Part shown: positions 3,234 to 6,321 of the stretch, piece after piece
How the letters are laid out: the number at the start of each line of letters is the position of its first letter
Position numbering within the stretch: the first letter of the stretch is position 1
NCBI GenBank assembly: GCA_028287565.1
Contig: JAQBPK010000054.1
Coordinates: 1 to 64,000 of the forward strand
DNA: 64,000 nt
Source of the DNA: Vulcanimicrobiota bacterium
GTDB lineage: Bacteria > Vulcanimicrobiota > Vulcanimicrobiia > Vulcanimicrobiales > Vulcanimicrobiaceae
Reading direction: 5' to 3'
The notes under the pieces: generated by a model
Told to the model about the DNA's origin: nothing
Databases searched by the model: none
The model's input: the letters and a program-made list of their open reading frames with translations, nothing else
Program-made: the position numbers and the translations under genes

Positions 3234-3881
3234 ATGGCGATCGCAGCCCCTGTCGCGGAGCCGCTCGACTACCACGAGCGGCCCGACGAAGATCTCGTCT
3301 CCGCGGCGAAATCGGGCGACAACCTGGCGATGGAGTTCTTGCTCAACAAGTACAAGAACTTCGTCCGAATCAAAGCAAAGAGCTACTTCCTCATCGGTGC
3401 CGACCGGGAGGACATCATTCAGGAAGGGATGATCGGTCTGTACAAGGCCGTCCGCGACTTCAAGGCCGACAAGCTTTCGAGCTTCCGGGCGTTCGCGGAA
3501 CTCTGCATCACCCGTCAGATCATCACCGCGATCAAGACGGCGACCCGGCAGAAGCACATCCCGCTCAACCAGTACATCTCGCTCAACAAGCCGATTTACG
3601 ACGAGGACAGCGAGCGTACGCTCCTCGACGTGATGCCGTCTCAGAAGACCTCGGATCCCGAAGAGCTCGTGATCAATCAGGAGGTCTCCGAAGACATCAA
3701 GGCGCGCATCCAGGAGAATCTGTCCGACCTCGAGTCGCAGGTGCTCCTGTCCTATCTGGAAGGCAAGTCCTACCAGGAGATGGCCCGCGACCTCAACCGG
3801 CACGTGAAGTCGATCGACAACGCGCTCCAGCGCGTGAAGCGAAAGATCGAGAAGAACCTGGCCGAGATCGAGCTCCCTTGA
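3234..3881 (+). CDS. sigH: RNA polymerase sigma factor, SigH (sigma-30) type
   Basis: A 215-aa sigma-70-family factor with SigH-like layout. Region 2 contains the core-binding and -10 melting segments (ADREDIIQEGMIGLYKAVRDF, then FRAFAELCITRQIITAIKTATRQKH). Region 4 has the -35-binding HTH (LEGKSYQEMARDLNRHVKSIDNALQRVKRKI). It keeps the SigH trademark segment SLNKPIYDEDSERTLLDVM. In Bacillus SigH drives transition-phase and competence/sporulation genes; the role here is unknown. ATG preceded by AAGGTAGG. Its position after cysE-cysS-rlmB and before the tRNA group matches the Firmicutes sigH locus. Confidence 0.93.
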   Translation: MAIAAPVAEPLDYHERPDEDLVSAAKSGDNLAMEFLLNKYKNFVRIKAKSYFLIGADREDIIQEGMIGLYKAVRDFKADKLSSFRAFAELCITRQIITAIKTATRQKHIPLNQYISLNKPIYDEDSERTLLDVMPSQKTSDPEELVINQEVSEDIKARIQENLSDLESQVLLSYLEGKSYQEMARDLNRHVKSIDNALQRVKRKIEKNLAEIELP

Positions 3882-4345: not shown

Positions 4346-4384
4346 GCTCTCCGTCGACCGCGTCTACGCGCGAGAAAGATGCAG

Positions 4385-4467
4385 AGCCGACGGTGGGATT
4401 CGAACCCACGTGTGCTTTCGCAGCGTGCTTACAAGGCACGTCCCTTCGACCGCTCGGGTACGTCGGC
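4385..4467 (-). tRNA. tRNA-Thr (anticodon TGT) with a class II body and long variable arm
   Basis: Acceptor GCCGACG pairs with CGTCGGC, the anticodon stem CGTGC/GCACG closes loop CTTGTAA (anticodon TGT), and T-arm GTGGG/CCCAC has loop TTCGAAT. Between anticodon and T stems are 14 bases that fold into a small arm (TGC-GAAA-GCA), and the D-arm has the 3-bp CCC/GGG stem typical of class II tRNAs. The discriminator is T73; CCA is not encoded. G1-C72, C2-G71, G35 and U36 fit ThrRS identity elements known from E. coli. A tRNA-Thr with a long variable arm is unusual. It is oriented opposite to the next two tRNAs. Confidence 0.8.
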
Positions 4468-4582: not shown

Positions 4583-4670
4583 GGGTCGGTGGTCGAGTGG
4601 TTAATGGCACCGGACTGTAAATTCGGCTCGCGAAAGCGATACGCAGGTTCAAATCCTGCCCGGCCCACCA
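4583..4670 (+). tRNA. tRNA-Tyr (GTA)
   Basis: Acceptor GGGTCGG/CCGGCCC with one G-T pair, a 3-bp D stem, anticodon stem CCGGA/TTCGG with loop CTGTAAA (anticodon GTA), a long variable arm with CGCGAAAGCG, T-arm GCAGG-TTCAAAT-CCTGC, discriminator A and encoded CCA. A normal class II tyrosine tRNA. Confidence 0.93.
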
Positions 4671-4738: not shown

Positions 4739-4812
4739 GCGGGCGTTGCATAATGGTAATGCCCTTGCCTTCCAAGCAAGAGTCGCGGGTTCGATTCCCG
4801 CCGCCCGCTCCA
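4739..4812 (+). tRNA. tRNA-Gly (TCC), probable prophage attachment site
   Basis: Acceptor GCGGGCG/CGCCCGC, anticodon loop CTTCCAA (anticodon TCC), T-arm GCGGG-TTCGATT-CCCGC, discriminator T and encoded CCA. The gene is intact and the prophage integrase begins about 320 bp downstream, so its 3' end is the likely attL core. The matching attR copy must lie right of the window; I did not see a second copy here. Confidence 0.93.
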
Positions 4813-5130: not shown

Positions 5131-6321
5131 GTGGCGAATGCGGCGCGGCGATCGCGTCCCGGTGACGGCTCGGTTTATCCCATCGGCGACGGTAAGTTCA
5201 TCGCCGCGATCTCGATGGGAGGGCGCGGGAATCGCCGGTACCGCCGCGTCACCAAGCCGTCAAAGGCCGAGGCGCTCGAAGCTCTGCGCCGCCTGCGCGC
5301 GGAATGCGCCCCGCTCGCGATCCTCGACGAGCCGGCCGTCACGCTGGAAACGTACCTTGCGGCCTGGCTTCACGAGACCGTCCGGCCGGCGGTTCGTAAG
5401 ACCACGCTCGCGACGTACTCGTCCATCCTCTCGACCCACGTCTACCCGCGCCTCGGCATGGTACGGCTGGACCGGCTCACGGCCGCGCATCTGCGCAAGT
5501 TACTCGCCGATCTGGAGCGCGAAGCCGTCGGCCCGCGCCTCCGAGAGGTTGTGCACCAGCGGCTCAAAGCCGCGCTTGCCGTCGCGGTGGAGCGCGGTGC
5601 GCTGGTCAAGAACCCGATGATCGGCGTCGCGCGCCATCGTGTCCCGCGCCGCACGATGAACGTCTGGAGCGCAGAGCAAGCCCGGATGTTCCTCGACGGC
5701 ACGGCCGACCACGAGCTCGCGGCGCTGTGGCGGCTGGCACTCTCGGCGGGCCTGCGGCGCGGCGAGATCCTTGCGCTTCGCACTGTCGACTTCGACGCGC
5801 GCGGACGTCGCCTGCGCATTCAGCACACGCTTTCGGCGGCCGGCGAGCTGCTCGAGCCCAAGACCGCGGGGGCGCGGCGGGCGATCGATCTGCCGGACCG
5901 CGCCGTCGCCGCGCTGCTGGATCACCGCCAGCGTCTGCTCGCCGCGGGCCTGGGCGGCTCCCTGTGGCTGTTCCCCGTCGAAGGCAAGGACGATCCGCGG
6001 CGCGGCGAGGTCCGGCTGCCGCGCGCCGTCGCTCGCGCATTCGAGCGCGCGACCGCGGCCGTCGACGGGGCGCTTCGTGAGCAGCTGGACGCGCAGCCGG
6101 GTCGCGCGGAGCCCTCAAAACCCGGAGACGGCCTCCCGCGCATCCGGTTCCACGACCTGCGGCACACCTGCGCGACGCTCCACCTCGCGAACGGGACGCA
6201 CCCGAAGATCGTGTCGGAGATGCTCGGCCACGCCTCCATTCAGATCACGCTCGACACGTACTCGCACGTACTCCCGAGCATGCAGCGCGACGCCGCCGAC
6301 CGGTTCGACGCCGTGCTGTAG
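5131..6321 (+). CDS. Prophage integrase, tyrosine recombinase
   Basis: Catalyses site-specific integration and excision. 396 aa with an N-terminal arm-binding region, a core-binding SAM-like domain (LETYLAAWLHETVRP onward, about 70-165) and a C-terminal catalytic domain. Catalytic residues visible: Arg209 in SAGLRRGEI, His341 and Arg344 in HDLRHTCATL, His367 in MLGHASIQIT and the nucleophile Tyr377 in DTYSHVLP. GTG start 3 bases after the previous stop. Its position beside tRNA-Gly points to that tRNA as attB. A strong hairpin terminator follows. Confidence 0.95.
   Translation: MANAARRSRPGDGSVYPIGDGKFIAAISMGGRGNRRYRRVTKPSKAEALEALRRLRAECAPLAILDEPAVTLETYLAAWLHETVRPAVRKTTLATYSSILSTHVYPRLGMVRLDRLTAAHLRKLLADLEREAVGPRLREVVHQRLKAALAVAVERGALVKNPMIGVARHRVPRRTMNVWSAEQARMFLDGTADHELAALWRLALSAGLRRGEILALRTVDFDARGRRLRIQHTLSAAGELLEPKTAGARRAIDLPDRAVAALLDHRQRLLAAGLGGSLWLFPVEGKDDPRRGEVRLPRAVARAFERATAAVDGALREQLDAQPGRAEPSKPGDGLPRIRFHDLRHTCATLHLANGTHPKIVSEMLGHASIQITLDTYSHVLPSMQRDAADRFDAVL

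Follow-up and report, generated by a model that had tools for sequence, protein, structure and literature searches.

A threonine tRNA gene with a class II core at an orthologous, class-switching locus of Eremiobacterota

Reviews confine the long variable arm to the tRNAs for serine, leucine, tyrosine (in bacteria) and selenocysteine, and regard its presence as fixed by the isotype (PMC7609411, PMC9976931). A tRNA-Thr(UGU) gene in the stretch of 64,000 nucleotides analysed here (the window) nevertheless has such an arm, and an earlier note on this DNA had raised the possibility of a reassigned tRNA, or of recognition by SerRS with insertion of serine at ACA codons. Which amino acid does this tRNA carry, and how did it come by this body? 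The sequence comparisons below make it very probable that the gene encodes a chromosomal, functional elongator tRNA-Thr(UGU), likely the sole reader of ACA, which is charged by ThrRS and has a class II core.

The tRNA-Thr(UGU) gene and its locus

The gene occupies positions 4385-4467 of the minus strand, a strand that the earlier note left unstated, with nucleotide 1 at 4467 and the discriminator U73 at 4385. ARAGORN called tRNA-Thr(tgt) on the minus strand at 4384-4467, and the Rfam model RF00005 matched 4467-4385 (59.1 bits, E = 3.2e-10). Read 5' to 3', the whole tRNA is GCCGACG-TACCCGAGCGGTCGAAGGGA-CGTGCCTTGTAAGCACG-[CTGCGAAAGCACAC]-GTGGGTTCGAATCCCAC-CGTCGGC-T, and CCA is absent from the gene sequence. 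The acceptor is of the threonine type, with G1-C72 and C2-G71 formed between the 5' strand GCCGACG (4461-4467) and the 3' strand CGTCGGC, which together with U73 spans 4385-4392. The anticodon UGU (4431-4433, from ARAGORN) lies in the seven-nucleotide loop of the arm CGTGC CUUGUAA GCACG, with U33 and A37 both present, and the T arm (GTGGG TTCGAAT CCCAC) completes an acceptor-T branch of 7/5 geometry, not the 8/4 or 9/3 that marks allo-tRNAs and selC*.

Both parts of the core are of the class II type. The 20-nt D region TACCCGAGCGGTCGAAGGGA (4441-4460) has a 3-bp CCC/GGG stem with 13-22 unpaired, and extra bases 20a and 20b in its loop. The 14-nt variable region CUGCGAAAGCACAC (4410-4423) forms the hairpin UGC-GAAA-GCA (4422-4413), followed by two unpaired nucleotides, CA, and then by C48. 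A class I core would have a variable loop of 4-5 nt and a paired 13-22, whereas a class II core combines a variable region of at least 10 nt bearing a hairpin with a 3-bp D stem and unpaired 13-22, as is found here. The anatomy, with the ARAGORN call, bears out the earlier description of a tRNA that is threonine-like in its anticodon and first two acceptor pairs and class II in its 14-base arm and 3-bp D stem, and also the judgement that such a core is atypical for bacterial tRNA-Thr.

The gene sits between the SigH-type sigma factor gene sigH (3234-3881, plus strand) and a divergent pair of tRNA genes, the class II tRNA-Tyr(GUA) (4583-4670, plus strand), a conserved partner of the locus 115 bp away, and tRNA-Gly(UCC) (4739-4812, plus strand). 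Directly downstream of tRNA-Gly(UCC) lies a gene for a tyrosine recombinase of the phage integrase family (5131-6321, plus strand), which suggests that an element has integrated at that tRNA. Public records name the relatives of this bacterium as Eremiobacterota (formerly WPS-2), a poorly known phylum of soil bacteria. In these relatives sigH, rlmB and cysS adjoin tRNA-Thr(UGU) of both classes, and sigH, the anchor of the comparison, is a neighbour in 82 of the stretches searched, again in both classes, where the contig extends far enough; the locus is thus orthologous across relatives. The canonical tRNA-Thr(UGU) of the E. coli thrU-type locus likewise adjoins tRNA-Tyr and tRNA-Gly. Our gene resembles canonical bacterial tRNA-Thr(UGU) in anticodon, G1-C72/C2-G71, 7/5 geometry, gene neighbourhood and decoding role, but its D arm is of class II and its variable arm is 14 nt long where the canonical form has 5 nt.

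The tRNAs of the window's own genome, collected through an Rfam search and from individual stretches, gave 63 Rfam matches. Outside a tRNA array, ARAGORN identified three chromosomal tRNA-Thr genes, of which only UGU is class II, the other two, CGU and GGU, being class I; this comparison with the genome's other threonine tRNAs, which the earlier note had proposed, also showed that the class I tRNA-Thr(CGU) has an acceptor stem and U73 identical to those of tRNA-Thr(UGU). A relative of the same genus assembled as one contig (G006, 99% complete), in which all 45 tRNAs were read, has the same arrangement: CGU and GGU are class I and the sole tRNA-Thr(UGU) is class II, which must therefore read ACA there. 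The tRNA-Thr(UGU) of the present bacterium is likely the sole reader of ACA as well. The array in its genome consists of at least 18 tightly packed, divergent extra tRNA genes at a contig end (C258, 9250-11242; L141, L613), adjoining chromosomal-type genes. Another genome (G090:C52, L215) has a comparable array, with 27 called genes, among them a tRNA-Asn of class II and an additional, second tRNA-Thr(UGU), of class I.

Class II genes and core switching among relatives

When 149 genomes of the phylum were searched with a pattern and 100 stretches were fetched, 101 tRNA-Thr(UGU) genes were obtained, the window's own included; the second copy in the G090 array was left out of the 100 compared. 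Comparison of the same locus in relatives, likewise called for in the earlier note, showed the class II form in 37 of these 100 genes, with variable regions of 11-21 nt, across 18 genus groups, seven of them mixed. The acceptor GCCGACG/CGTCGGC with U73 is common to 46 class I and 30 class II genes. The D arm follows the variable arm: 36 of the 37 class II genes leave 13-22 open, as against 18 of the 63 class I genes (Fisher p = 1.6e-12, relatedness ignored). Among these 18 are some whose variable regions measure 5, 6 and 7 nt and whose D arm is TGGCTCAGCGGCNACAGCA, a type also found with variable regions of 11 and 15 nt, so that lengths of 5, 6, 7, 11 and 15 nt beside a 3-bp D arm form a graded series. 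One class II gene (L205, in G082) has a 21-nt variable region and C33 in place of the near-universal U33.

The pairing of the variable arm exceeds chance. In relatives, 27 distinct class II variable regions have hairpin stems that average 2.93 bp, whereas shuffles, which ignore relatedness, average 1.43 +/- 0.15 and in none of 5000 reached the observed mean; a GNRA-closed loop is present in all 27. The window does belong to a metagenome-assembled genome in many pieces (399 contigs, 83.7% complete), which would invite the suspicion that an assembly error, a pseudogene or a chance structure explains the arm. The probability of this is negligible: 37 separate assemblies share the form, the single-contig genome among them, the arm stems differ in sequence while pairing is kept, and the search gave no competing UGU gene.

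The earlier note had reasoned that relatives with the same arm would make it a lineage trait. The relatives do have it, but the trait is unstable and switches within the lineage. On a species tree of 72 genomes, built from four linked proteins beside the locus with a quick search, the class label changes at least 21 times, 17 of these changes being forced by well-supported branches, and the labels are clustered no more than shuffled ones (134 of 500 shuffles were as low). Class I and class II alternate even between sister species. In the protein tree of one genus, g25, every class II species is paired with a class I species; the class II genes of G034 and G119 are identical over 84 of 84 nt, while the class I genes of their sisters are 30 edits away and the tRNA-Tyr genes of the same loci show 0 differences. 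The proteins reject the class II pair as a clade (p-AU 3.5e-6) and the class I pair likewise (p-AU 1.5e-47), and the 72-genome tree together with this test rules out a simple vertical trait of single origin.

In Eremiobacterota, then, a single orthologous locus has repeatedly exchanged one core type for the other, so that the D arm and the variable arm switch together while threonine identity stays. Most of the cross-class pairs examined have homologous flanks on one or both sides of the gene, and switching would most likely proceed, as a rule, by replacement or conversion of the gene in place and not by a succession of single mutations. BLAST of these pairs placed an apparent replacement boundary at the T arm, which may mean no more than that the T arm and acceptor are conserved, and we therefore claim no integrase mechanism.

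Threonine identity and the reading of ACA

Threonine identity resides in acceptor pairs and anticodon (PMC9976931), and because bacterial ThrRS relies on these elements the core is free to be class I or class II. ThrRS would charge tRNA-Thr(UGU) through G1-C72 and C2-G71 in the acceptor and G35 and U36 in the anticodon. The tRNA shares with class II tRNAs for serine, leucine and tyrosine the 3-bp D stem, open 13-22, extra D-loop bases and a hairpin arm with a Tyr-like offset, yet it has a threonine acceptor, U73 and a threonine anticodon, its arm is shorter than that of tRNA-Ser, and it has neither the A15-U48 of tRNA-Leu nor the A73 of tRNA-Leu and tRNA-Tyr.

Recognition by SerRS depends mainly on the variable arm (PMC9976931), and the V13-type D arm TGGCTGAGTGGTTGAAGGCG resembles the D arm of tRNA-Ser(GCU), TGGCCGAGTGGCTGAAGGCG; SerRS might on these grounds read the long arm, fully or partly, making ACA serine or a mixture of serine and threonine. 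We consider this very improbable. All 32 distinct class II threonine genes have C2-G71, U73 and G15-C48, and their arms are mostly of 2-3 bp with mostly 2-3 unpaired nucleotides before 48, whereas the tRNA-Ser genes of the group have G2-C71 and arms mostly of 4-7 bp, which adjoin 48 with no unpaired nucleotide in 16 of 17 cases, the exception lying in a tRNA array. Two unpaired nucleotides are found in 39 of 40 tRNA-Tyr arms of the group, and its tRNA-Leu genes have A15-U48. The window's gene, with C2-G71 and two unpaired nucleotides, lacks both the G2-C71 and the stem adjoining 48 of tRNA-Ser, and in E. coli tRNA-Leu the C2-G71 pair acts as an antideterminant against SerRS (PMC9976931). SerRS should reject this tRNA because its arm is short and offset from 48 by 2-3 nt and because 2-71 is C-G; U73 and the anticodon should exclude LeuRS and TyrRS. 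The discriminator alone cannot exclude SerRS, since tRNA-Ser(UGA) in this genus (G000, the window's own genome, and G006; L059, L318) also has U73 and not the usual G73.

The codons themselves point the same way. In conserved proteins ACA stands for threonine: ACA codons fall on conserved threonine columns in 26 of 39 cases in class II genomes and 42 of 73 in class I genomes, in a small sample of related genes. Across the 39 positions in class II genomes there was no excess of serine, alanine coming next after threonine and serine not being among the leading residues; a few percent of serine would be undetectable here, because these GC-rich genomes seldom use ACA and the aligned genes share ancestry. 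The column analysis, the arm geometry and the acceptor lead us to reject reassignment of ACA to serine, leucine or tyrosine.

Of 22 genomes, 17 have ThrRS above the family cut-off, always as a single gene apart from the two in G117, and 20 have SerRS, one gene each; the rest gave partial or weak matches. The bacterium's own ThrRS (G000:C250, 27160-28824; L341), of about 580 aa, has catalytic, anticodon-binding and tRNA_SAD editing domains, and a domain search detected no TGS domain at its N-terminus; its SerRS has the usual N-terminal arm domain. The editing domain of bacterial ThrRS clears Ser-tRNA-Thr (PMC7373986), a further point against serine at ACA. These comparisons support neither of the earlier proposals: the orthologous locus, the acceptor and U73 shared with tRNA-Thr(CGU), and ACA on threonine columns speak against a reassigned tRNA, and the arm geometry, the 2-71 pair and the same columns against SerRS. 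By all the sequence evidence the tRNA is specific for threonine, and its long arm gives no ground for assuming that ACA has been reassigned or is read ambiguously as serine.

Viral genes, possible origins and significance

Long-arm tRNA-Thr(UGU) also occurs in viral contigs, where 97 of 209 distinct genes were class II in a sample enriched for that class, and 4 of 79 in a sample unfiltered on arm length. The class II form also occurs in cultured phages, with 12 nt in Sinorhizobium phage Phosso and 15 nt in Pseudomonas phage HPP-Temi, and D arms are exactly common to viral and chromosomal genes in G069 (TCCCATAGCGGTCGATTGGA) and G086 (TAGCCAAGTGGTTGACGGCA). Phages or mobile tRNA arrays might accordingly be the source of class II genes that repeatedly replace the native class I gene. 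We regard this as unlikely: D-arm identity can be convergent, since D arms are short and stereotyped, and the chromosomal class II genes, with about six exceptions, are nearer to a gene of another genus of Eremiobacterota (1-22 edits) than to any viral gene found (10-24 edits). For the window's gene the nearest viral relative found is 21 edits away and the nearest chromosomal gene in another genus 15, leaving a direct phage origin unsupported.

Phage tRNA arrays (IMG/VR L350-L429 and L473-L566; L606, L470) also contain long-arm tRNAs of isotypes that are class I in cells, namely Asn, Cys, Ile, Lys, Met, Pro, Glu, Gly and Val, and tRNA-Lys of Caulobacter phage CcrColossus has a 17-nt arm. In other phyla, a pattern search that demands a GCCG start and misses GCTG types gave one long-arm tRNA-Thr(UGU) in 399 genomes of Firmicutes (the phylum of G181, a Carboxydocella record) and none in 43 of Armatimonadota (the phylum of G159). 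The single Firmicutes gene (L611, in G492), in a tRNA-Tyr/Met/Thr cluster, combines a class I D arm with a 17-nt variable region, apparently an independent gain of a long arm without change of the D arm.

The body could also derive from a class II tRNA of the same genome, tRNA-Tyr or tRNA-Ser, recombined with tRNA-Thr into a chimera that kept the threonine acceptor and anticodon. The Tyr-like offset of two unpaired nucleotides, GNRA loops that are common in both kinds of tRNA, and a tRNA-Tyr gene 115 bp away are all consistent with such an origin, which we nonetheless think doubtful: no class II threonine variable arm equals a tyrosine, serine or leucine arm of its group, and the graded forms (5, 6, 7, 11 and 15 nt) permit stepwise change too. 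We favour a class II tRNA-Thr in which class I and class II cores swap at one orthologous locus, usually, it would seem, through local replacement or conversion.

Several known systems come close. Allo-tRNAs and selC* tRNA-Cys, found in surveys of genomes and metagenomes, also have unexpected long arms with anticodons outside those of serine, leucine and tyrosine, and selC* retains cysteine identity in a long-arm body (PMC7609411), but these are 8/4 or 9/3 tRNAs, Sec-like or accessory, whereas ours has 7/5 geometry, lies on the chromosome and is likely alone in reading its codon. Another unusual tRNA-Thr is the tRNA-Thr(UAG) of yeast mitochondria (PMC7609411), but there an enlarged anticodon loop accompanies reassignment of CUN, and here no codon has changed. 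We found no earlier description of a class II tRNA-Thr in the open-licence literature searched.

What stands out is the evolution of a cellular threonine tRNA, likely the only reader of its codon, that is class II in about one-third of the genomes compared and passes to and fro between the two cores among close relatives. Annotators are thereby warned not to take a long arm for a mark of reassignment. The intermediates of 5, 6, 7, 11 and 15 nt offer a natural series for tests of how D arm and variable arm co-evolve, of how a long-arm tRNA escapes charging by SerRS and of why phages, too, carry such tRNAs. More speculatively, the core class of an essential tRNA for a sense codon may be an exchangeable module, with class I and class II cassettes of tRNA-Thr(UGU) circulating between Eremiobacterota chromosomes and phages and swapping at one locus without change of code, perhaps under selection by defence or toxin systems whose cleavage of tRNAs depends on recognising one shape of core.
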